This document shows, in pieces, positions 44,151 to 57,398 of a stretch of 64,000 nt of DNA. The position numbers and the translations under genes were made by a program. Location: NCBI GenBank assembly GCA_009885795.1, contig VFKA01000027.1, positions 1 to 64,000 of the forward strand. The letters are read 5' to 3'. The DNA comes from Rhodospirillales bacterium. GTDB lineage: Bacteria; Pseudomonadota; Alphaproteobacteria; Dongiales; Dongiaceae. Position 1 is the stretch's first letter; the number at the start of each line of letters is the position of its first letter. A model generated the notes under the pieces. It did no database searches, had not been told where the DNA came from, and saw nothing but the letters and a program-made list of their open reading frames with translations.

Positions 44151-44506
44151 CCTTGCCCCCGCTAATTTCTCGGTCGCTTCGCCGATGAAACCCCTCGATG
44201 TCTCGGGATTGTCCGGCAACGCTTTGTTATAAAAAGATATTTGTTGGTTCTAGTCCCCACCAACCAAGGCAGTGTGATCCAGCCTCGCGCGATGTGCAAC
44301 TAGATTTTGCGGGGGTGCCATAAAATGGACACAACATGTAGCAGGATGCGGCCCAAGGCCCGAAGGACGCCGAGCAGCCATGGCCTAACCGATTGTTACT
44401 CATGAAGAATCACTACGAAGATTCTCGTTGCCTACGCCTGCGCCGGTGATCCATGCTGAAACCACGACACTCCGCGAAAATGAAGCTTGAACAGGGGGAG
44501 GCCCAA
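44151..44506. other. 356-bp divergent region between nrdJ and the alpha/beta hydrolase gene
   Basis: It contains AT-rich sequence at 44225-44245 suitable for the nrdJ promoter and an inverted repeat GTTGGT / ACCAAC (44243-44248 and 44259-44264) just upstream that could be an operator. I looked for a cobalamin riboswitch and for NrdR boxes and saw neither clearly. Confidence 0.4.
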
Positions 44507-45361
44507 ATGAACGCTATCCGCAATTTGGCGCTGGCCGCGGGACTCGCCGCCGGCCTGGCCGCCGGCCCGGCGAACGCCGAGGAGGTCTGGGAAACGCTGC
44601 CGCCATTGCCGGCGATGCCGGCCGCCACCGAGAGCGGCTTGGCGCCGGTGAACGACATCCTGATGTACTACGCCGTCTATGGCGCGGGCGACCCGGTGAT
44701 CCTGCTCCATGGCGGGCTCGGTCACAGCGACGTTTGGGGTTATCAGATCCCCGAACTGGCGAAGCACTTCAAGGTCATCGCCGCCGATAGCCGCGGCCAC
44801 GGCCGCAGCACCCGTTCGGCTCAAGCCTACGGTTACGCGCTGATGGCGACGGACGTCGTCGCCCTCATGGATCATCTCAAGATCGACAAGGCCTCGATCG
44901 TCGGCTGGAGCGACGGCGGCATCATCGGCCTCGACATCGCCATCAACTTCCCGGGGCGCCTGGACCGGCTGTTTGCCTTCGGCGCCAACACCAATGTCGC
45001 CGGCCTGCGCGCCGACATCGCCGACAGCGCCGTCTTCAACAAGTACATCGAGAACGCGGGCGCGGACTACGCGCGCATGTCGCCGACGCCCACCGAATTC
45101 GACGCCTTCGTCGCCCAGATCGGCGAAATGTGGGCGACCCAGCCGGACTACAAGCCGGAACAGCTGGCGACGATAACGGCGCCCGTCGCCATCGCCGATG
45201 GCGAACACGACGAGGCGATCCGCCAGGAGCACAACAAGGAGATGGCCGACGCCATCCCCGGCGCGACGCTGGTCATCCTGCCCGGCGCCAGCCACTTCGC
45301 CTTCCTGCAGAAGCCCGACGAGTTCAACGCGGCGGTGCTCGAGTTCCTGCAGGCGAAGTAG
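44507..45361 (+). CDS. Secreted alpha/beta hydrolase
   Basis: A 284-residue alpha/beta hydrolase with a signal peptide (NLALAAGLAAGLAAGPANAEE). The oxyanion motif is HGGLGHSDVW, the nucleophile elbow is VGWSDGG with S135, the acid is in ADGEHDE and the histidine is in LPGASHFAF. This fits esterases, lipases or haloperoxidase-like hydrolases acting in the periplasm. The start at 44507 is supported by GGGGGAG 6 bases upstream. The cupin gene converges on it with a 22-bp gap. Confidence 0.92.
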   Translation: MNAIRNLALAAGLAAGLAAGPANAEEVWETLPPLPAMPAATESGLAPVNDILMYYAVYGAGDPVILLHGGLGHSDVWGYQIPELAKHFKVIAADSRGHGRSTRSAQAYGYALMATDVVALMDHLKIDKASIVGWSDGGIIGLDIAINFPGRLDRLFAFGANTNVAGLRADIADSAVFNKYIENAGADYARMSPTPTEFDAFVAQIGEMWATQPDYKPEQLATITAPVAIADGEHDEAIRQEHNKEMADAIPGATLVILPGASHFAFLQKPDEFNAAVLEFLQAK

Positions 45362-45383
45362 ATCGACGCGGGCGGCGGCGCTG

Positions 45384-45800
45384 CTACTGCGCCGCCTCGG
45401 CCAAGGGCTTGCCCTTCTCCTTGACCTGGAACACCAGGACCTTGGCCGGCTCGCTGTCGCTGCCGTTGTGGGCGGCATGCACGACGCCTTGCGCCAGGTG
45501 AGCGGTGTCGCCCGGCTTCAGCGTGATCGGGTCTTTCCCCTCCGGCTCGACGATGAGCGTGCCTTCGAGGAGATAGACGAACTCGTCGCCATGATGCGTA
45601 TGGCGTCCGACGGCCTGGCCCGGCCCGAACTCGGCCGTGTACATGGCGCCTTCCCTGCCATCGATTCCCGTGACATCCGCCGTGAGCAGCTCCTTGCGTA
45701 CGATCGGCTGGTCCTGGGCGGTCGCGACGCCCGCCCCGATTCCGCCGAAGAGGACGGCAAGCGCGAAGGCCGTGCCGAGGATCGATGTTCCGTTCGCCAT
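45384..45800 (-). CDS. Exported cupin-domain protein
   Basis: A 138-residue protein with a signal peptide (ILGTAFALAVLFGGIGAGVATAQ) followed by a single cupin barrel. The metal-binding motif is GRHTHHGDEFVYLLEG, and the second motif is KPGDTAHLAQGVVHAAHN. The conserved histidines and glutamate are present, so it should bind a metal in the periplasm. Family members include dioxygenases, isomerases and simple binding proteins. The start at 45800 is preferred because GGGAG lies about 10 bases before it; the frame also runs up to 45824. Confidence 0.88.
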   Translation of the reverse strand: MANGTSILGTAFALAVLFGGIGAGVATAQDQPIVRKELLTADVTGIDGREGAMYTAEFGPGQAVGRHTHHGDEFVYLLEGTLIVEPEGKDPITLKPGDTAHLAQGVVHAAHNGSDSEPAKVLVFQVKEKGKPLAEAAQ

Positions 45801-45846
45801 GATCGAGTTCTCCCAAGAGTTCATTTGAAATCCGCCGGACCGTAGC

Positions 45847-45927
45847 TCACGCCCCCTCCGGAATCCACCATTCCTCGCCGCGAGGCGTCGTCACGTATTC
45901 CGGCCAGCGGAAGTGGATGGGGGCGGG
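45847..45927 (-). pseudogene. Detached 3' end of an M20 amidohydrolase gene (left direct repeat)
   Basis: Reading on the minus strand it encodes PAPIHFRWPEYVTTPRGEEW, then WIPEGA and a stop. The same peptide with one change (A for P) ends the intact hydrolase gene at 48678. The DNA identity with 48680-48758 is about 90% over 79 bp, with most differences silent. It is not a functional gene. It marks the left edge of the restriction-modification cassette, and its silent divergence shows that it came from a homologous gene rather than from a recent local copy. Confidence 0.85.
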
Positions 45928-45950
45928 AGCATCTTGAAGCGCTGCCCTGT

Positions 45951-46871
45951 TCATGACTTGCTCGATGCCACGAAATCCGCCAAGTCCTGGAGACGGAAAG
46001 CCCAGAACAGCGAGAGACCGGCCTGCTGCGCGGTTTCCAAATTGCCCGGATTGAATACGCCGCTGAGAACGGCGGAAGGCACCGTCGCCCGGTCGCCGAA
46101 AGCGCGCAGCCACTTGGCGGCCTTCCCGGCGGCCTCATGATTGACACGCTTGAACGAGTTGACGGCGCTGTTCGACGCCTTGCACTCGATTGCCATGACG
46201 CGCTTGTCGCCGAGCCGCACGACGAGGTCGGCGCGGGTGTCGCCGAGTTTGCTTTCGCCGCAGAATTCGCCGGGGGCCGGCGCCCGGTCAAGTAGAGCGA
46301 TCTCGCGCGCCGGCACTTCCTTGAAGCCTAGGCCGCGCAGCAATTCCTTCACCTGCGCCTCTTGCGCGTCCTTGGCGTCCTTGCGACGCGCGGTTTCGAC
46401 TTTCCTGGCGGCGACCAGGGCGGCGGAAGCAACGACGGCCTGTTCGCGCTCGTGCTTTGCCGGTTCACGCGGTTGGCCGACCCAGGGGAATCGGTGCGGG
46501 TCGATGATGTGCAGAACCACGTCCCGCACTCGCCGCGCCTGATCGGGGTCGCGCCGAAGCGCGGCGGGCGAGAGCGTCGTCTCGGCGAGGGTCTTGAGGT
46601 CGTCCTCGGAGATCGGCGGGCCGGTTAGGTAACGCAAGGCGGTGCGCTGGTCGGCGTCGCGAACCATGCCGGCCAGAACCTCGGGGTCGGGTTCCGCGGC
46701 GGATAGGTTCGGCAGTTTGTCGATGATGGACTCGAAAATAGGAACGAACGCGCCGAAGAAACGCGAATAGATTTCGAGGGGTTCGTCAAGACGCTCACGC
46801 CGGAAGATGGTCTTCGCTTCCTCGGCGTCGTCCCGCAACTGCCGTATCGACCATTGGCGAGGTGATTTCAT
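45951..46871 (-). CDS. Type II restriction endonuclease, XamI-like
   Basis: A 306-residue protein resembling the XamI restriction enzyme family, immediately downstream of an adenine methyltransferase (77-bp overlap). A PD-(D/E)xK nuclease core is visible near the C-terminus: D215 in DTRADLVVRLGDKRVMAIECKAS with E229 and K231. The preceding helical half (RFFGAFVPIFESIIDKLPNL, then PISEDDLKTLAETTLSP) is the variable specificity region. If the family assignment holds, the target may be GTCGAC, the site I remember for XamI, but related enzymes could differ. Its stop lies 23 bp from the left direct repeat. Confidence 0.82.
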   Translation of the reverse strand: MKSPRQWSIRQLRDDAEEAKTIFRRERLDEPLEIYSRFFGAFVPIFESIIDKLPNLSAAEPDPEVLAGMVRDADQRTALRYLTGPPISEDDLKTLAETTLSPAALRRDPDQARRVRDVVLHIIDPHRFPWVGQPREPAKHEREQAVVASAALVAARKVETARRKDAKDAQEAQVKELLRGLGFKEVPAREIALLDRAPAPGEFCGESKLGDTRADLVVRLGDKRVMAIECKASNSAVNSFKRVNHEAAGKAAKWLRAFGDRATVPSAVLSGVFNPGNLETAQQAGLSLFWAFRLQDLADFVASSKS

Positions 46872-48486
46872 GAAGTCTTTCCAGCCGGGGAATTGGGATG
46901 CGCTCGACCTCTTTGGGCTCGAACTTGGTTAGCCCGCCTGCATAGGTCCGCCCCGATCCGGTACACACGTGATTCGAAAGATAGACGATTAGCGCCATCA
47001 AGTCGGCGTCGCTCAAGCGTTCGCGTGGATAGAGGCCGTGTGCGATGTTGATGTGCCGGGCGCCGCAAGGATTGCGGACAAACGCCGGAGGTCGTCGCGC
47101 CATGTAAGTGCAGAGAATGGGCGCCGGCGCGCGAAGGTTTACCGACCACCAGGCGCGCCGCGCGGAGGCGACGTAGGATTGGTGCGCGCCCCGCGCCTTG
47201 GCCCATTCGAGAAATCGCTCGACACGCTCGCGGTCCATGGTGTCGAGCGTGTCAAGCTCGGCCGGCAGGTCGATGACCCGGCGCAGGCGGTCGGCTGACG
47301 CGAGAATCGCGCCGGTTGCCAGAAGCTCACGCGCCTTGGTGACGGTTGGCAAGAGGTAAGCGGCGGGAATTTCGCCGCGATAGGCCCCGGCGATCCAGGT
47401 GTCGTTGCCACCCGTAACCTGACCGCGGTGTACGCGGCAAATTTCGCCAAGCTCTATGTACCCGTGGGGCGGCGGCGCGGTCGGCTTGAGGATCGGGGTC
47501 CAGCGGTTCGCCTTCTCGAGGGTCGGCCAAGGCACGGGTGTTCCGCCCGCTAGGTTCCCCAGCCGGTCGAGCGAGCCTACCGAGCGCATGACCATTTCAC
47601 CGGGGCGCATACCGATACGGAAGCAGGTGATCGCGCCGGTCGTGGCGGCGCCCGCGAAGGGCATGGACTCCGGGGTCAGCACGTGGAGCGCCGCGCCGCC
47701 GAGCCCGTCGGCGAGCATCTTGCGCAGTACGGCGCCGTAGTTCACGTCGAGCCACTCCGCGGCGGTGATAAACACGCCGCGGTCGCCGACGCGGCCCAAC
47801 TGCCGCGTCTTCAGAAAGAAGTGGATGTGCAGGCCGGCGAGCTTGCTGGCCTTGAAGCCATAGCCGGTCGCTGTCGCGGCGAACCAGGTCTTCCATTCCG
47901 CGCCGATGTCATGGTGGCGGACATAGGGCGGGTTGCCGATGAACAGGGTGGGACCGTCGATTGGCGGCAGGGTCAGATGTCGGTAATCGGCGCACCATGC
48001 GGTGAGGCGTCCGGTCAAGCCGAGAACGGCGGCATTTGCGCGTAACATCAAGACTGCGAGCGGGTCGGTGTCGACCGCCACCAGGGCGGCCTTGGGAAAG
48101 CTCCGCGCGGCGGCCAGGAGAAAGCGGCCGGAGCCACAGCCGGGGTCGACAACGCGTGCCGGATCCCCTTGCTTCGCCGCCCAACCGACCATGCTCCGGA
48201 CAATAGTGGCGGGCGTGTACACGGCACCGCTCGCCCGGCGCGCGACGCTCGGGCGCAGCAGGCAGAAGGCCTCGCCGAGCGGGTCGGAGCCGGCCTCGAT
48301 AAGGGCGCGGACCGATCGTATGAGGTTGGGGGCGGCTGGCTTGCCCTCGGCAACTAGACTCCATTCCGGGGTGCTATACGGGGCCTTCGGCCCCGCGAGC
48401 GCGCGGGCCACCGCCGCCAACTCGGCCTGCGAACCGATGGCCGTCGCCGAGGCAAGCATCCCACCGGTCGCTTGTATGGATGTCAC
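46795..48486 (-). CDS. Type II N6-adenine DNA methyltransferase
   Basis: A 563-residue gamma-class methyltransferase. The AdoMet motif I is VVDPGCGSGRFLLAAA (DPGCGSG 114-120) and the catalytic motif IV is FIGNPPYVR (NPPY 185-188), in the order typical of the gamma class. The C-terminal half, with WVRGE-type variable sequence, holds the target-recognition region. It is followed with a 77-bp overlap by the endonuclease, and should methylate its recognition site to protect the chromosome. The start is GTG at 48486; ATG 48459 is a good alternative with GGTGGG before it. Confidence 0.92.
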   Translation of the reverse strand: MTSIQATGGMLASATAIGSQAELAAVARALAGPKAPYSTPEWSLVAEGKPAAPNLIRSVRALIEAGSDPLGEAFCLLRPSVARRASGAVYTPATIVRSMVGWAAKQGDPARVVDPGCGSGRFLLAAARSFPKAALVAVDTDPLAVLMLRANAAVLGLTGRLTAWCADYRHLTLPPIDGPTLFIGNPPYVRHHDIGAEWKTWFAATATGYGFKASKLAGLHIHFFLKTRQLGRVGDRGVFITAAEWLDVNYGAVLRKMLADGLGGAALHVLTPESMPFAGAATTGAITCFRIGMRPGEMVMRSVGSLDRLGNLAGGTPVPWPTLEKANRWTPILKPTAPPPHGYIELGEICRVHRGQVTGGNDTWIAGAYRGEIPAAYLLPTVTKARELLATGAILASADRLRRVIDLPAELDTLDTMDRERVERFLEWAKARGAHQSYVASARRAWWSVNLRAPAPILCTYMARRPPAFVRNPCGARHINIAHGLYPRERLSDADLMALIVYLSNHVCTGSGRTYAGGLTKFEPKEVERIPIPRLERLHEITSPMVDTAVAGRRRGSEDHLPA

Positions 48487-48677
48487 GGGTTTCGAACCGG
48501 CATTCCGCCGAGCCCCTTATCTTAGCTGGTTTACTCGAATCGGCCTGAACCCATCGAATCCTGTGGCCGCGCCGGCCGACTGTCAATATTCTTGTTTTGT
48601 TCTCGATACAAGGGGAATCTGTTTTGCTTCGAGACCTTCCTCAAGGGGCCGCTCCAGCGGATTGGCGCCTGATGCGG

Positions 48678-50270
48678 TTACGCCCCCTCCGGTATCCACC
48701 ATTCCTCGCCTCTGGCCGTGGTCACGTATTCCGGCCAGCGGAAATGGATCGGGGCGGGGAACTTCCTCGGCAACAGCGGTCCGACCCAGTTCTTGCCGCC
48801 GATGCCACCGCCGGTGCGGGCCTTGAACTCGGCCTTGGCCTTGGCAAGGAGAGCGGGTCGGGTCAGGAGATCGACGATGGTGAGGCCGATGGTCCGCGCG
48901 GCGGAGAAGATCGTCGGGTCGATCGTCGCCGGATAGCCGCCGAGCGCGTTCCACACCCATTCCGGATAGCGGTAGTTGGGCGCGGGCGGGCGCAACGTGG
49001 CGCGGCCGATGTAGAGGCGCACGGTCGGGCAATGCCATGTGTAGTCGGTGTAGTCGTCGGAGGTGTAATTCTTCTGCCAGGCCGGAAGCTCCTGGCGGAT
49101 CGCGGCTTCCGCCTCTTCGGGCGGCGTCAGCCGGCTCATCTCCGGCGCCATCGGATCGCGCATCGGCTTCAGCCCGAGATTTTTCTGGATCGCGGCGGCG
49201 AACCGGCGCGCGTCCGCGCCCCACGCCGGCGGTCCGGCGATCTCGAGGTTGTCGTAGGTGAGCCGCGCCATCGCGTGATTGGGCAGGCCCGGCCGCGTCT
49301 TGGTCACCCAACCCTTGCGCAATGTGCAGCCCGTGACGGCCGCCGCGTGTTCGGCGTTGTTGTCGAGAATGGCGAAGACGCGGGCTTGCATGTCGAGCGT
49401 CGGCGCGCGGCTCGCGTATTGGATCTGGCTGAAGCGCGGCGGCAGGTTGTCGGCCGTCGCCTGGCCCGCGGCGAGGATCGCCTCGTTGATGGTCCAGGTG
49501 CCGGTGTGCGGCAGCATCGCCTCCTTGGTGTACTTGGTCATCGTGTACATGAGGCAGACGGCGTCGATGGCGCCGGGTGCCCGCGCCGAGGTGTGCGGGT
49601 TGCCGGAATCGCCGGCGGCGCCCATGGCGGCCCAGCTTTCGGGGTTGTCGCACTCGAAGGTGTAGACCTTGCTCCAATACGACCCGCAATGCGTGTCCCA
49701 GATGGTCGTATTGGAGAGCGTGCGGAAATAGGCCGGGTGAAAGCTCACCGCGGCGTCGAGATCGTCGTAATAGCCGTGCGCGGCATGGATGGGCTTCGAG
49801 CCGCAGACCTTCTCCGCCGGCTCGCCGAAGAACTTGAGCGTGCCCTTGAGGCCGTGCTTCTCCATCGCCGCCTTGGCCGCGAGCACGCCGCCCAGCGCGC
49901 CCAGCCCCAGCGCCGAATGGGGATCGGTATGGCCGGCGGCCTCCGGATGCAGGCCCGCGCGGGGCTTGCGGTAGGGCACCGGCTCCTGGCTCTGGCCGGG
50001 GACCGCATCGTACTCGGCGTATGTTGCGATGACGGGCTTGCCGGACCCGAACGTCGCCATGAAGGCCGTCGGCATGCCGGCGGTCCCTTCCTTGACCTTG
50101 AATCCGTGCGCCCGCAGCAGGCGGACGTAATAGGCGGCGGATTGGTACTCGCGCCACGCGGTCTCGTGGAAGTTCCAGATGTCGGTATGGGTGGCCGACA
50201 GCCACTTCTCGTGGGCAGCGACCCAGTCGAGCGCGGTCTTCTTCGGCGCGGGCAGGCGCGGCGTGGGCAT
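48678..50270 (-). CDS. M20-family amidohydrolase (AbgB-like)
   Basis: A 530-residue zinc peptidase/amidohydrolase similar to the p-aminobenzoyl-glutamate hydrolase subunit AbgB. Conserved segments are WNFHETAWREYQSA, VIATYAEYDAVPGQSQ, AGHTDPHSALGLGALGGVLAAK, FFGEPAEKVCGSKP and DSGNPHTSARAPGAIDAVC. Metal-binding acidic and histidine residues lie in the DAVPG and GHTDPH motifs. It hydrolyses an amide bond in a small folate-like or acylated amino acid substrate. Its 3' end is the insertion point of the restriction-modification cassette; the gene itself is intact. A transporter partner (abgT) is not nearby. Confidence 0.9.
   Translation of the reverse strand: MPTPRLPAPKKTALDWVAAHEKWLSATHTDIWNFHETAWREYQSAAYYVRLLRAHGFKVKEGTAGMPTAFMATFGSGKPVIATYAEYDAVPGQSQEPVPYRKPRAGLHPEAAGHTDPHSALGLGALGGVLAAKAAMEKHGLKGTLKFFGEPAEKVCGSKPIHAAHGYYDDLDAAVSFHPAYFRTLSNTTIWDTHCGSYWSKVYTFECDNPESWAAMGAAGDSGNPHTSARAPGAIDAVCLMYTMTKYTKEAMLPHTGTWTINEAILAAGQATADNLPPRFSQIQYASRAPTLDMQARVFAILDNNAEHAAAVTGCTLRKGWVTKTRPGLPNHAMARLTYDNLEIAGPPAWGADARRFAAAIQKNLGLKPMRDPMAPEMSRLTPPEEAEAAIRQELPAWQKNYTSDDYTDYTWHCPTVRLYIGRATLRPPAPNYRYPEWVWNALGGYPATIDPTIFSAARTIGLTIVDLLTRPALLAKAKAEFKARTGGGIGGKNWVGPLLPRKFPAPIHFRWPEYVTTARGEEWWIPEGA
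48680..48758. repeat. Direct repeat, right copy (3' end of the M20 gene)
   Basis: Partner of 45849-45927, with about 8 mismatches in 79 bp. It spans the last 25 or so codons and the stop of the intact hydrolase gene. Both copies are in the same orientation and bracket the restriction-modification genes. Confidence 0.85.
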
Positions 50271-50310: not shown

Positions 50311-50400
50311 CCCTCATGCTGAGCCTGTCGAAGCATGAGCTTCCTCATCCCGAGCTTCCTCATCCCGAGCTTGTCGAGGGACGAAGGACGAAACATGAGG
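50311..50400. repeat. Palindromic intergenic repeat, copy 6 (tandem arms)
   Basis: CTCATGCTGAGCCTGTCGAAGCATGAG, then two direct copies of CTTCCTCATCCCGAG, then CTTGTCGAGGGACGAAGGACG. The arms match copies 2 and 5, and the internal 15-base duplication is unique to this copy. Confidence 0.75.
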
Positions 50401-50847: not shown

Positions 50848-53800
50848 ATGCCCACACCCCTTGAAAAATTTCAGGCGCTACTCCGGGAGCTGCTCCAGTT
50901 CGATTGCGCCGACCTCGATTTCGGCGTCTACCGGATCATGAATCTGCGCCGGGAGCGGCTGGAACGGTGGTTGACGGTGGACTTTCCCGCCCGCACCCGC
51001 CAAATCCTGCAAGGCGCGGCGCCAACCTTCGATGACGACCTGGCGGCAAGACTGGAGGGGCTGCGCGTCACGCTTCGCGCGGTCGATCCCAACGCCATCG
51101 ACGACGACGGCAACCTTGTGAGCGAGGCGCTTCGTTCGGTTCCCGCCGGGCAAGAATACGCCCGCCTGTTCGCCCAGCAGCGGCGCGCCCCGATCCGGCC
51201 CACGGCCGACCTGGAGCCGCTGATCTATAATCACCTCTACGAATTCTTCTCGCGCTACTACGACACGGGCGACTTCATACCGAAGCGCCGGCGGTCCTTC
51301 GCGCCGGACGGGCGCGACACCTACGCCGTTCCCTGGGACGGCGAGGAAGTCGTCCTCCATTGGGCGAACAAGGATCAGTACTACGTCAAGACGGGCGAGC
51401 GGTTCACGCACTACCGCTGGCAAAGCCGCGCCGCGGACAGGGCCTTCACCATCGAATTCCGGCTTACCGAAGCCGATCTGCCTGCGGCCAACAACAAGGA
51501 TGGCGCCAAAAAATTTCACTTGCCCCTGGAGGACAGGATCGAGTGGAACGACGAAGCCTCGCTCCTTCTCGTGCCGTTCCATTACCGCAGTCTCGCATCG
51601 GACGAGGAACGCGCCATCGGCGGTAGCCAACAGGCTACGATCCGCGACAACATATCATCGCGCACGGTCGATAGGTTGCGGGCGCATCCGGTCGTTGGCG
51701 GTGTTCCGCACCTCGAAACCGCGCTCATGGCACCGAAAAAAGACGCCGGCGGGAATGATGTTCAGAACAAGAGCGGCCATCCGATTCCGCTGCTCCGGCA
51801 TCATCTCAATCGCTGGGCCATGAAGAACGAGGCCGATTTCTTCATCCACAAGAACCTGCGGCGGTTCCTGTCCGGCGAGTTGGATTATTTCATCAAGAGC
51901 GTCGTTCTGAATCTCGACAACCTACTCGCCGCCGGCGAATTGCGGGCGGATCCCAATTTCCGCCTGCTCGAAGCGGTCAAAAAACTTGGCGGCGAAATCG
52001 TCGATTTCCTCGCCCAGCTTGAGGACTTCCAGAAGGCGCTGTTCGAGAAGAAGAAATTCGTCGTCGAGACCCACTGGTGCCTGACGCTCGACCGCATACC
52101 GGCCGCGGTCAAGGACGAGGCCTACGCCGCCATCCTCGCCAATGACCGGCAATGGGAGGCTTGGGAAAAACTCTTTCGGGTTTCGGCCTGGCCGCGCGAT
52201 CTCGCAACGACGGAGCCACGCACCCGTGAGTTTCTCGACGTTTTCTCGCACATGATGATCGACACCAGCCTCGGGTATAACGGCGCTTTCGTGGACAATC
52301 TCATCGCTGAAATTGAGAACATTGATGGCGACATGGATGGCCTGATCATTCAATCGGAGAATTTTCAGGCGCTCAATCTCCTTCAAGAATCATTCTTAGA
52401 AGGAGTCAGCAGTATTTACATTGATCCACCATACAACACCGATGCCGGACCAATCAGCTACAAGAACGGATATCGCTCTTCGTCGTGGGTCACAATGATC
52501 AGTCAAGCGCTTGCGGCATCGCGGCGCCTCCTTACGACCAGAGGGGTGCTCTGCGCGACGATCGATGATTACGAGTTTAAGGAACTCGGTTTCGCGATTG
52601 AGAGTGCGTTCGGAAAGGACTTGGTGTCGGGAGTTATTGTAATCCGCGCAAATCCCTCCGGCCGACCGGAGCCAGGTGGACTCTCAATCAGCCACGAGTA
52701 CGCAATTTTTGCAAAGCGATCAGCGGACGCAATCATCCAAAAAATGGCACGGTCGAAGCAACAAGACGAGCGCTACACAGAGCATGACGATGTGGGTGAA
52801 TTCGAGTGGAGAAATTTGCGACGCGAGGGAGCAAATTCGGAGCGAAGCAGACGACCGAAGCTTCACTATCCATTGTATGCGAAGGGCGAGCAAGTGCGAA
52901 TTCCTATGATGGAATGGAACGGTGGTCACACCGAATGGATCATTAGTGAAGAGCCTAGCAAAGGCGAGGTGGTCGTGTGGCCACGAGACAGAGCGGGGGT
53001 ACAACGCACCTGGCGGTGGGGTATTGAAAAAGTCCGTCAGAATCTTGGGATCGTCAGATGCCGCAAGACTGGGCGAACCGAGTGGCAAGTGTATTTCAAG
53101 CGCCGACCTGATCCAGAAGGTATAACACCACCGACAATCTGGACAGACCCAAAGTATTCGGCCACAGAGCATGGTACCGCGACATTAAAAAAGCTATTTG
53201 GGGTGCAGGCATTCAGCTATCCCAAATCGCCATATGCAGTAGCAGATTGCATCTGGATAGCCGGTTTGTCGGACGATGAATCAACTGTGATTGACTATTT
53301 TGCTGGCTCCGGCACTACGGGCCACGCGGTTATTAGCCTGAACCGCCAGGACGGCGGTGCGCGGAAATACATCCTCGTTGAAATGGGGGAGTATTTCGAC
53401 ACGGTTTTGAAACCGCGCCTTCAGAAGGTCGTGTTCTCGGAAGATTGGAAGGATGGCACCCCGACTCCGCAAGCCAACCCAACTAGCCAGCGCAATCCGT
53501 ACAACGGCGTCTCGCACTGTTTCAAGGTGTTACGCCTGGAGAGCTACGAGGACGCGCTCGACAACATCGAGTTCAACCATGTTGCGGCACCGGGCGAGCA
53601 GATGGATCTGGAGCTTCCCAGCGACTACGAGTTGCGTTATGCGCTCGATTGGGAAAGCCGGGAGTGTCTCACGCGGCTGGCCGTCGGGGCGCTCGATGCC
53701 CCTTTTGACTACACGCTGACGCTTCGCCGCGAGACCGGCACGGTAACGGTGCGGCCGGACCTGCCGGAGACGTTCGCCTATCTCATCGGTCTGCATGTGC

Positions 53801-54075
53801 GGCGACGGTTCTGGGTCGAGCGCGAAGGCGTCCGCTATCTGATCTACACCGGAACGCTGCATTCCGACGGCACGGAGACGGCCGTGCTGTGGCGCAACTG
53901 TCGGGGCTGGTCGGAGCAAGACTTGCAGATGGAAAAGGATTGGTGGCGCCAGCAGCGGGAAACGCTCGCGCCGGGCGCCATGCACATCTACGTCAACGCC
54001 GCTTGCGCCATCGAAGGGCACCGTTGCCTCGATCTCGAGTTCAAGAGCCGGATGCATTCTCCGGCGACCGCCTGA
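50848..54075 (+). CDS. Type III-like restriction-modification methyltransferase (Mod)
   Basis: A 1075-residue beta-class N6-adenine methyltransferase: the catalytic motif DPPYNT (526-531, in SIYIDPPYNTDA) precedes the AdoMet motif FAGSGTTG (818-825). The first 500 residues are a large domain not found in simple Mod proteins (QFDCADLDFGVYRIMNLRRER, then YNHLYEFFSRYYDTGDFIPK). The restriction helicase starts 11 bp downstream, so they form a two-gene system. The part between about 52290 and 53330 (motif IV, the target-recognition region and motif I) is lower in G+C than both flanks, suggesting that the specificity region was replaced by recombination. Confidence 0.88.
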   Translation: MPTPLEKFQALLRELLQFDCADLDFGVYRIMNLRRERLERWLTVDFPARTRQILQGAAPTFDDDLAARLEGLRVTLRAVDPNAIDDDGNLVSEALRSVPAGQEYARLFAQQRRAPIRPTADLEPLIYNHLYEFFSRYYDTGDFIPKRRRSFAPDGRDTYAVPWDGEEVVLHWANKDQYYVKTGERFTHYRWQSRAADRAFTIEFRLTEADLPAANNKDGAKKFHLPLEDRIEWNDEASLLLVPFHYRSLASDEERAIGGSQQATIRDNISSRTVDRLRAHPVVGGVPHLETALMAPKKDAGGNDVQNKSGHPIPLLRHHLNRWAMKNEADFFIHKNLRRFLSGELDYFIKSVVLNLDNLLAAGELRADPNFRLLEAVKKLGGEIVDFLAQLEDFQKALFEKKKFVVETHWCLTLDRIPAAVKDEAYAAILANDRQWEAWEKLFRVSAWPRDLATTEPRTREFLDVFSHMMIDTSLGYNGAFVDNLIAEIENIDGDMDGLIIQSENFQALNLLQESFLEGVSSIYIDPPYNTDAGPISYKNGYRSSSWVTMISQALAASRRLLTTRGVLCATIDDYEFKELGFAIESAFGKDLVSGVIVIRANPSGRPEPGGLSISHEYAIFAKRSADAIIQKMARSKQQDERYTEHDDVGEFEWRNLRREGANSERSRRPKLHYPLYAKGEQVRIPMMEWNGGHTEWIISEEPSKGEVVVWPRDRAGVQRTWRWGIEKVRQNLGIVRCRKTGRTEWQVYFKRRPDPEGITPPTIWTDPKYSATEHGTATLKKLFGVQAFSYPKSPYAVADCIWIAGLSDDESTVIDYFAGSGTTGHAVISLNRQDGGARKYILVEMGEYFDTVLKPRLQKVVFSEDWKDGTPTPQANPTSQRNPYNGVSHCFKVLRLESYEDALDNIEFNHVAAPGEQMDLELPSDYELRYALDWESRECLTRLAVGALDAPFDYTLTLRRETGTVTVRPDLPETFAYLIGLHVRRRFWVEREGVRYLIYTGTLHSDGTETAVLWRNCRGWSEQDLQMEKDWWRQQRETLAPGAMHIYVNAACAIEGHRCLDLEFKSRMHSPATA

Positions 54076-54086
54076 CCGGCGGCTAC

Positions 54087-57000
54087 ATGCCCGCCCACCG
54101 CGCCACCGCCACCCGCCGCACCGCTACCCGCGCCATTGCCACCGTGCGCGGGGAGACGCTGGTACAGCGCTTGTTCCTGCTGCGCTGGCTGCATGCGCAG
54201 TTCGGGTTCCCAAGCGTTCCGAATGACCCAAATGGCGACGGAGCCACGAAGCAAGCGTTGGAGTTCTGCCGGAACGTACAGGAAGGTTACGCCGCGGACG
54301 GCGTTTCCTATCTTACAATGCTGTTGCTTGCACGCGGCGGGCGTAGCGTGACCGACGACCATCTTCGCCGCTACGACGAAAACATCCGCCGGCACCTTCA
54401 TGCCATCAACGAGCGGCGGGCGGAGCCGATCACGCTTCGGTATTTCCAGCACCTGGCCCTCCTATACACCGAGCATGTGCTGCATCGGCTGTTCGCCCAG
54501 CCGAGGCAGCTCTGTTCCGACCTGAACCGCTTCGTCCAGGAGACAAGGGCGGCGGGTTGGCGCGAGTTTCCGCGCTTCAGGCTCGCGGATTTACGTAAGC
54601 TTGCCTATATGATGGCGACGGGCTCCGGCAAGACGTTGCTGTTGCACATCAACTACCGCCAGTTCCTGCATTACAACGCCGGCAGGCCGCTCGCGAATAT
54701 CCTTCTTGTCACCCCCAACAAGGACCTGAGCGAACAGCATGAGCGGGAGCTAAGGGCCTCCGGCCTGCCGTGCCGCCGCTTCGAACCGGGGCGGCCGCGC
54801 GATTTCACGGACGATCCGTACGCCGTCGAGATCATCGAGATATCCCGCTTCGTGCCGGAGAAGAGGGACAGGGGCACGCGGGTGGAGCCGGCGTCCTTCT
54901 CGGGCCGGAACCTGATTTTCGTGGACGAAGGCCACCGCTCGAAGAGCGAAGAGGGTGTGCAACGGCGGATTCGCGAGGCGCTGACCGGCGACGAGGGTTT
55001 CGTGTTCGAGTACTCGGCCACCTTCCAGCAGGCCTTCGCCGGCGAGGACGAGGACCAGAAGGCGCGCCGGGACGAGTACGGCGCCGCCATCGTCTTCGAT
55101 TACTCCTATCGCTGGTTCCTGCACGATGGTTTCGGCAAGGACTTTACCGTCCTCAACAGCCGGGGCGACGACGAGGAGTCGGCCCTTTGGCCGTTGCTGG
55201 CCGGGCTGTTCGTGTTCGGCGCCCAGGTCCATGCCTATCGCAACAACACGCCCATCTTGGCGAACTATAACGTCGCCCACCCGCTCGCGCTCATGGTGGG
55301 CAGCCAGGTCGCCGGTTCGAGCGGGGAGGACAACCGAACGAAATCGGACGTGTTGCGGGCGTTACTGTTCTTTCACCGCTTCCTACGGAACGCGGATGGC
55401 TGGAGCGTCGCACGGCTGAACGAACTGCTCGCCGGCACGTCGCCGCTGCACAGACAGGGACTCGGTGGAGCCTTGAAGCAGGCGCGGGACTATTTCGACG
55501 CGGCCGGATTGGCGGCGGCGCAGCTCTTGTTCGATTTCATTGCAGCGCAGGTCTTTCACTCGCCGACTGGCGGCGGGTTAGTGATCCACCGAATCAAGGG
55601 CAACGAGAACGAGATCGCGCTACGCGCCTCGGAAGCCGGCGGCGGGCAGCCTTTCGGTCTCGTCTACATCGGCAAGGCTTCCGATCTGACAGCACTGATC
55701 CTGCCCGAGCATGGCATCGAGCAGTCCGACGACGCGCTGGCGGACGCTTGGTTTCCGCGCATCGAGGAGCCCGATTCTCCAGTAAACTTCCTGGTTGGGG
55801 CCAAGATGTTCATCGAGGGCTGGTCGAGTTGGCGCGTCAGCGCGATGGGCTTGGTGAACATCGGCAAGAGCGAGGGATCGGAGATCATCCAGCTTTTCGG
55901 CCGCGGCGTGCGCCTCCTTGGCCTGCATCGGGGGCTGAAACGTTCGACCTGTATCAGCGGGATACCCCACCCCAAGTTCCTGCCGATTCTTGAACGCTTG
56001 TTCGTATTCGCCATCGACTCGCGCTACATGGAAAAATTCAGGCAAATCATCGATCGCGAGGGCGTGGACGGCGGCGGGTTCGTGGAGTACGAGCTCAAAC
56101 TCTGGCGGATGATCGAACACGGGACGCTGCCCGATTTGGCGATGCCCGAGTGGCCGGGGGAAACGGCCTTCCGGGACAGGGCGGCGGTGCTGTTCGATCC
56201 TCGCCACCTTGGCGACCGGCCGGACCGCCGGCGTATCGCGGTGCGCCGCGACCTTCGTTACCAGAGCTTCGCAAGCGACGACGACAACGCCATTAGGGCC
56301 GGAGAGGCGCCCGAGCGGGAGAAGAAGCTTTCGGAGTGCGGTTGGAGGCGCTTCATCGACCGCGAGGCGCTCTATCTGCGCCTTGTCTCTCATGCCCGGG
56401 AGCGCGGATTCGACAACCTGGGATTTGGGTTCGGCCACGTTCGGCAGTTTATCGAGAACCACGCCGACGACTTGATCCTCCATGCGCCTGAAAAATTTCA
56501 CCAGATTGAGAGTTGGGACGACCGAAGGCGCCTCGAAGAGGCTGTTTTCGACCTCATGAAGGTCGCGCTGGAGCGAGTTTACCGCCGCGCCCAGCAGACA
56601 TGGGAAACGCAAAACATGCGCGTGCCCATGTTGAGTGCCGACCACCCCAACCACAAGTTCGTCTATCGCATCCGCGTCCCCCAGCGGCTGACACAGTCGG
56701 CGGCCGATTTCATCCGCGAGCTTGAGGCGTTGGTGGGGAATTGCCCGAAGGAGGACTGGTCGCGGACCGAGCCGCTTACGGCGGTGGCCCGCTTCGGCGA
56801 ACACCTTTATCAGCCGCTGCTGCTCGACGCCGGGTTAGCCGCCAACAAGACAACGCCAAACCGAGACCAGCAAAGGCAGTTGACGATCGTTCCCGCCCTG
56901 TTGACGGAGAGCGAGCAGCAATTCGTCGAAATGCTGCGGGATTACTGGATCGAAAAGAAGGAGACCGAACACCGCGGAGAGCGCATTTTTCTTCTCCGCA

Positions 57001-57398
57001 ATCTGAGTCGAGGGAAGGGGATCGGTTTCTTCGAGTCGGAGGGATTCTACCCCGACTTCATTCTTTGGCACTTGCTGGCAAACGGTCGTCAACGGCTCGT
57101 GTTCATCGAGCCTCACGGCATGAGGCAGGAAGACGCACCGGACGTCAGCAAAAAAGTGAAGATCGCGCGCGAGATCGGAGCGCATCTCGATGCCGCCATC
57201 CGGGTGGCCGGATGCCCCATCGCGGAAGTGACCGCGTTCATCGTATCGGCAACGCCGTTGCTTGAGCTGCGGCGCAAGCACGGCGAGAACCGAACGGCGC
57301 AGTGGTACGCAGAACACCACATTCTGTTTCCCGAGGAAATGGCGAAGTCACCTAGGCTAGGCGGGATCTTGATGTCCTCCTCTGGTGAACGGCCCTAG
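54087..57398 (+). CDS. Type III-like restriction enzyme helicase/nuclease (Res)
   Basis: An 1103-residue superfamily 2 helicase with a C-terminal nuclease-like domain. The motifs are Walker A ATGSGKT (177-183), Walker B DEGH (280-283), the SAT box in FEYSATFQQ and motif VI in IIQLFGRGVRLLG. Near the end GFYPDFILW (P989-D990) and LVFIEPHG (E1008) correspond to the PD-(D/E)xK nuclease of Res subunits, but the expected lysine is histidine (H1010), which may weaken or change cleavage. With the upstream methyltransferase it should form a restriction complex that translocates along DNA. ATG 54087 is the first start after the methyltransferase stop. Confidence 0.9.
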   Translation: MPAHRATATRRTATRAIATVRGETLVQRLFLLRWLHAQFGFPSVPNDPNGDGATKQALEFCRNVQEGYAADGVSYLTMLLLARGGRSVTDDHLRRYDENIRRHLHAINERRAEPITLRYFQHLALLYTEHVLHRLFAQPRQLCSDLNRFVQETRAAGWREFPRFRLADLRKLAYMMATGSGKTLLLHINYRQFLHYNAGRPLANILLVTPNKDLSEQHERELRASGLPCRRFEPGRPRDFTDDPYAVEIIEISRFVPEKRDRGTRVEPASFSGRNLIFVDEGHRSKSEEGVQRRIREALTGDEGFVFEYSATFQQAFAGEDEDQKARRDEYGAAIVFDYSYRWFLHDGFGKDFTVLNSRGDDEESALWPLLAGLFVFGAQVHAYRNNTPILANYNVAHPLALMVGSQVAGSSGEDNRTKSDVLRALLFFHRFLRNADGWSVARLNELLAGTSPLHRQGLGGALKQARDYFDAAGLAAAQLLFDFIAAQVFHSPTGGGLVIHRIKGNENEIALRASEAGGGQPFGLVYIGKASDLTALILPEHGIEQSDDALADAWFPRIEEPDSPVNFLVGAKMFIEGWSSWRVSAMGLVNIGKSEGSEIIQLFGRGVRLLGLHRGLKRSTCISGIPHPKFLPILERLFVFAIDSRYMEKFRQIIDREGVDGGGFVEYELKLWRMIEHGTLPDLAMPEWPGETAFRDRAAVLFDPRHLGDRPDRRRIAVRRDLRYQSFASDDDNAIRAGEAPEREKKLSECGWRRFIDREALYLRLVSHARERGFDNLGFGFGHVRQFIENHADDLILHAPEKFHQIESWDDRRRLEEAVFDLMKVALERVYRRAQQTWETQNMRVPMLSADHPNHKFVYRIRVPQRLTQSAADFIRELEALVGNCPKEDWSRTEPLTAVARFGEHLYQPLLLDAGLAANKTTPNRDQQRQLTIVPALLTESEQQFVEMLRDYWIEKKETEHRGERIFLLRNLSRGKGIGFFESEGFYPDFILWHLLANGRQRLVFIEPHGMRQEDAPDVSKKVKIAREIGAHLDAAIRVAGCPIAEVTAFIVSATPLLELRRKHGENRTAQWYAEHHILFPEEMAKSPRLGGILMSSSGERP

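Follow-up and report, generated by a model that had tools for sequence, protein, structure and literature searches.

The locus described here raises the question of how a pair of restriction-modification (R-M) genes could settle at a coding gene without breaking it, and which of the two gene ends that now flank the pair is the original one. Within the 64,000-nucleotide stretch of DNA that was analysed (the window), an intact M20/amidohydrolase gene is followed by a short R-M cassette, on the far side of which lies a detached second copy of the gene's 3' end (Table 1). We consider it rather probable that a small R-M element entered the M20 3' end by one reciprocal recombination, leaving a structure with attL- and attR-like repeats that resembles a cis-mobilizable element (CIME), that is, an element without an integrase that yet keeps both att sites (PMC5704250). 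The locus offers a small and readable case, in which the M20 gene would have exchanged its final codons for foreign ones that encode almost the same peptide.

Table 1. Features of the M20 locus and its cassette, in window coordinates.
Feature	Coordinates	Strand	Evidence
Integrase-free cassette of 2,752 bp, lying between the repeats	45928..48679		Missing at the corresponding syntenic site in G004 and G008
Type II DNA methyltransferase, Eco57I-type, NPPY motif, 563 aa, open ORF	46795..48486	-	PF07669 E 7e-8; PADLOC MTase_II E 1.8e-221
XamI-family restriction endonuclease, 306 aa, open ORF	45951..46871	-	PF09572 E 2.6e-39; PADLOC
M20/amidohydrolase gene, 530 aa, putative insertion target	48678..50270	-	TIGR01891; host-like, syntenic body
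Cupin gene directly after the detached tail, outside the cassette	45384..45824	-	No close homologue in synteny among relatives
Repeat copy 1, 3' end of the intact M20 gene	48680..48758	-	90% identity; relatives, codon usage
Repeat copy 2, detached M20 3' end	45849..45927	-	90% identity; comparison with relatives
23-bp core copy 1, putative crossover zone	48721..48743	-	Identity block; agreement with relatives flips across it
23-bp core copy 2	45890..45912	-	Identity block

The direct repeat of 79 bp that the initial annotation had placed around the cassette is present, its two copies being equal at 71 of 79 bases (8 mismatches, 90% identity). Both copies, read on the minus strand, encode PAPIHFRWPEYVTT[A/P]RGEEWWIPEGA-stop, which is the end of the 530-aa M20/amidohydrolase protein; the translated copies differ at one residue, as had been claimed, and the gap of 23 bp between the endonuclease stop codon (45951) and the left repeat is likewise as described. 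Homology is bounded by the stop codon on one side and ends 78 bp upstream of the stop on the other, and between tail positions 16 and 38 the copies share an identical 23-bp core (TTCCGCTGGCCGGAATACGTGAC, coding strand). Only two copies of the repeat were recovered from the host genome (3.46 Mb, 103 contigs; E = 1.7e-24 for the detached copy, 0.13 for the next-best match), and to the left of the cupin/hydrolase pair a search for a third tail copy gave nothing above shuffled background. Of the eight base differences seven leave the amino acid unchanged, where neutral change would make 22-26% silent (P for at least 7 of 8 about 2e-4 to 5e-4), and this excess means that the two tails diverged inside functional genes. 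The tail was also considered as a folded recombination site, a candidate that we rejected because the secondary structure is not consistent among the genomes compared (folding z about -2 for both host copies, -2.7 for G001, +1.4 for G004, -0.9 for G008 and +1.5 for Shinella).

Between the repeats lies a predicted XamI-type Type II R-M system with both ORFs intact. The XamI-family endonuclease gene adjoins the Type II methyltransferase gene, as is characteristic of such systems, with the two ORFs overlapping by 77 bp, and both products score above their Pfam cut-offs (135.7 bits against 25 for the XamI endonuclease, PF09572, and 33.2 against 25.3 for the Eco57I methylase). These two are the only ORFs of the cassette; integrase, transposase and transfer genes are absent and there is no space for an integrase. 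Measured against a sample of 116 host genes, codon usage falls at the 8th percentile for the methyltransferase and at the 14th for the endonuclease. XamI-type endonucleases above the Pfam cut-off were found in 4 of the 385 genomes sampled in the class, the host counted, and related R-M pairs also occur on small plasmids, on conjugative plasmids and on one viral contig (L127). In G275, of the same class, a related XamI cassette (L114 5956-8050) lies directly downstream of purH and its endonuclease frame is disrupted; it was examined as a like case and set aside, as it sits by purH without a duplicated purH end.

Comparison with members of the same family provides empty sites, which the initial annotation had suggested looking for. 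In G004 and G008 the order is RNR (minus), acyltransferase, M20 (minus), an ABC transporter operon and a Rid-family gene, and the R-M cassette is absent from the M20 locus. The order of the M20 gene with RNR, the Rid-family gene and the 58929 gene is common to the host and to G004/G008, and G001, a MAG from another genus of the family, has the same M20-RNR order split over two contigs; M20 and RNR thus stand in order in three relatives, none of which has the cassette. Identity between the host and these relatives is 74% for M20 and 72-75% for RNR, and the M20 gene stands at the 96th percentile of the 116 host genes in codon usage. The shared order, the RNR-like identity and the host-like codons together indicate that the M20 gene was resident before the cassette came in. 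Two observations named beforehand as contrary to an insertion were not made, in that the flanks searched in the empty-site genomes hold no tandem fragment of the tail, and no second full M20 gene lies nearby in the relatives. The 64-kb window contains no tRNA or RNA gene as an insertion target.

Further features of the neighbourhood may be recorded here. Where the relatives have the acyltransferase between M20 and RNR, the host has an alpha/beta-hydrolase gene and the cupin gene (44453-45824), both host-like in codon usage. In the gap between M20 and the Rid-family gene a type III R-M system (50848-57398; Mod 50848-54075, ResIII helicase subunit 53889-57398; codon usage at the 3rd-8th percentile) fills the place that the ABC transporter operon, consisting of a binding protein and two permeases, occupies in G001, G004 and G008. 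R-M systems flank the host M20 gene on both sides, and REP-like short repeated motifs (ctcatcccgagcttcctcatcccgagcttgtcgaggg) are found at 50315-50400, in the space that separates the start of M20 from the type III R-M system.

Which M20 end is resident was judged from the outgroup tails of G004, G008 and both G001 contigs, compared at the bases that distinguish the two host copies. At tail positions 9 and 15, upstream of the core, the outgroup bases give 5 matches to the intact copy and 1 to the detached copy, and downstream of the core (positions 39-80) they match the detached copy 21 times, the intact copy twice and neither 5 times, these counts coming from 9 differing bases, 2 of them upstream of the core, and from 3 related outgroup genomes whose matches are not independent. 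Agreement with the relatives switches from the intact to the detached copy across the core. Codon usage gives a comparable picture downstream of the core, where the intact end reads GCC AGA..ATA..TAA; AGA accounts for 1.1% of host Arg codons, ATA for 3.7% of Ile codons and TAA for 13% of stops, and at the same codons the detached copy has CGC (56%), ATT (10%) and TGA (47%). By this measure the detached end resembles host usage about 44 times more closely than the intact end does downstream of the core, and slightly less closely upstream of it. The crossing pattern of matches and the host-rare AGA, ATA and TAA suggest that the intact M20 gene is most likely a hybrid of resident body and incoming 3' end, and the detached fragment is probably the original end of the resident gene, displaced. 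The support that relatives and codon usage lend to this polarity is good but not conclusive, since the outgroups are related and the sites few.

This result alters part of what had been proposed. The initial annotation held that the detached copy evolved in a functional homologue and then arrived at the locus; divergence of the tails inside functional genes agrees with the 7 of 8 silent differences, whereas the reverse direction is favoured for the arrival, the detached copy being resident-like downstream of the core (21 matches against 2). Whether the intact gene uses an incoming or a resident 3' end had been left open, and the evidence favours an incoming one. Reading the locus as a mobile insertion was thus largely right, apart from the direction in which the end was replaced.

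We propose that the incoming R-M element bore its own copy of the M20 gene end, and that one reciprocal exchange within the 23-bp core took place between the tail of the element and the chromosomal M20 gene. The tail of the element would have restored the reading frame, with the M20 gene staying at 530 aa, and the original 3' end would have been displaced to the far side of the cargo. A single exchange of this kind in the core would make the two 79-bp repeats attL- and attR-like junctions and the element CIME-like. Such a product is routine for elements with site-specific integration into gene 3' ends. The features of the locus are those of a CIME in that the flanks are M20 ends, with resident-like halves that switch across the core, and the cargo of two R-M ORFs in 2,752 bp is without integration or transfer genes. 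The intermediate may have been circular or tail-bearing, and an integrase may have acted in trans or may since have been lost, the element being either the decayed remainder of a larger integrative element or one that was moved in trans.

Searches for such an integrase and for a donor were negative within the following scope. The host genome has 7 tyrosine-integrase matches, 6 of them above the Pfam cut-off, and beside none of the 7 is there a second copy of the att-like sequence. No integrases were found near M20 genes at other loci, in a search that used the host's own integrases as queries and is weak given how diverse integrases are. A donor of the tail was sought in phages, plasmids and viral contigs and none turned up; phages and viral contigs gave neither M20 nor its tail, and plasmids gave ordinary-looking M20 genes only.

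One crossover through a short stretch of homology would have the same outcome as the action of a recombinase, and the reading that we favour must be weighed against a Campbell-type event, in which circular DNA integrated through the 79-bp segment without a site-specific recombinase and the remaining plasmid sequence was lost afterwards. An R-M plasmid carrying an M20 tail captured from a close relative, and recombining through homologous or short-homology recombination, would be an example. It would yield the same junctions, XamI cassettes do occur on small plasmids, and experiments have shown an R-M plasmid and a chromosome to recombine by reciprocal crossovers at 1-3 bp (PMC3031569). However, it requires a captured M20 tail that ends exactly at the stop codon and the loss of everything except the R-M genes, and no plasmid was found that has an M20 tail beside an R-M system; we therefore regard it as unlikely. 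It is also conceivable that the exchange was much larger, with an incoming M20 gene and its R-M systems, XamI on one side and type III on the other, replacing most of the resident M20 gene, of which the detached tail would be the sole remnant. The presence of R-M systems on both sides, with the type III system standing where G001, G004 and G008 have the ABC transporter operon, would be consistent with this, but the body of the M20 gene is host-like in its codons while both R-M systems are atypical (3-14th percentile), and the intact copy matches the relatives upstream of the core, which makes a replacement on this scale improbable.

The remaining explanations differ in how they account for the two tails. 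R-M systems have been proposed to insert with long and variable target duplications (Nobusato 2000, cited in PMC3031569), and under such a Nobusato/Kobayashi model an insertion in situ would have duplicated the 79 bp and the copies would then have diverged. Copies made in this way would have had the same sequence at first, and of the two the detached one, being free of constraint, ought to have accumulated changes more quickly. Yet the changes that could be polarised fall mostly downstream of the core in the intact copy, which is under constraint; 4 of these changes lie within 6 bp, and the codons there are rare in the host. Since it is the constrained copy and not the free one that holds most of these changes, the two copies do not appear to be duplicates of one host sequence made at insertion, and we judge this model to be decidedly improbable. 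The silent divergence of two functional tails would be explained by a remnant of a tandem M20 paralogue (M20a - R-M - M20b), in which deletion spared only the final 79 bp of M20b, but the relatives have no second close M20 gene nearby and the deletion would need to end 23 bp from the endonuclease stop, so that this history seems very improbable. Finally, as the host genome is a draft assembly of 103 contigs, an R-M fragment of another genome might have been joined falsely through the M20 tail. We find this barely credible, as the identical block of 23 bp is short for a false join (the k-mer of the related G001 assembly is 55 bp) and the contig is continuous for 69 kb through the site.

The M20 locus of G001 may bear on whether the site has been used elsewhere in the family. 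One of its contigs, C66, carries the M20 gene up to the stop codon, where it breaks off; the other, C26, with the acyltransferase and RNR genes, opens within the M20 tail at position 39, immediately past the core as defined in the window. The two contig ends (L092 1-42 and L134 1-42) overlap by 42 bp with 1 mismatch, whereas all 11 of the other adjacent G001 contig pairs overlap by exactly 55 bp with 0 mismatches, in a sample of both ends of the 60 largest contigs plus C66. An imperfect overlap of 42 bp against exact overlaps of 55 bp argues that this junction is not an ordinary k-mer break, and the chance of a break within 100 bp of the site is about 0.4%, by an after-the-fact estimate from about 160 contigs and 4.2 Mb. 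The contig ends are compatible with a variable insertion flanked by imperfect tails, which hints at a recurrent site, although the break may also reflect a gap in coverage together with an error at the tip of a contig. That the M20 3' end is a recurrent site in the family for tiny integrase-less defence cassettes bearing replacement gene ends, with G001 as a second independent occupied or polymorphic site that shares the core boundary and has an imperfect tail duplication of 42 bp, is in our view doubtful. Should the G001 signal be real, it would mark a place where defence cassettes integrate in an alphaproteobacterial family that has received little study, and the movement of bare R-M cassettes without recombinases would become directly testable.

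Among known systems, the locus belongs to a known kind, a CIME-like insertion of an R-M system at the 3' end of a gene, with a target for which we found no earlier description; a full-text literature search, narrow in scope, returned none of the M20 3' end as an integration site. The XamI R-M cassettes on plasmids have the same order as here, methyltransferase then XamI endonuclease, with endonuclease identity of about 44-48%. They lie near genes for a HigA-type antitoxin, an integrase or a recombinase, whereas in the host the R-M pair is alone and on a chromosomal-type contig. Insertion of the type attributed to Nobusato 2000 resembles the locus in placing an R-M gene pair within a direct repeat of host sequence without an IS or integrase. 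Against that model, the host copies are only 90% identical with their differences split at the core, and the foreign-looking end on the gene attached to the cassette is a feature that in-situ duplication does not predict.

The closest likeness is to the CIMEs of streptococci. CIMEs of 1.2-13 kb have been documented in the 3' ends of coding genes, and those of Streptococcus, ICESt1-type and others, lie in the 3' ends of fda, rpsI, rpmG and rplL (PMC7563491); related ICEs and IMEs also carry type II R-M systems (PMC7563491, PMC5704250). The host cassette differs from these in that no ICE, IME or integrase was found to use its site, and in having an M20 hydrolase gene of an alphaproteobacterium as its target and a repeat of 90% identity where the streptococcal repeats are near-identical. 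It shares with the streptococcal CIMEs a short cargo that lacks integration and transfer genes, a position at the 3' end of a coding gene, and two copies of that gene end.
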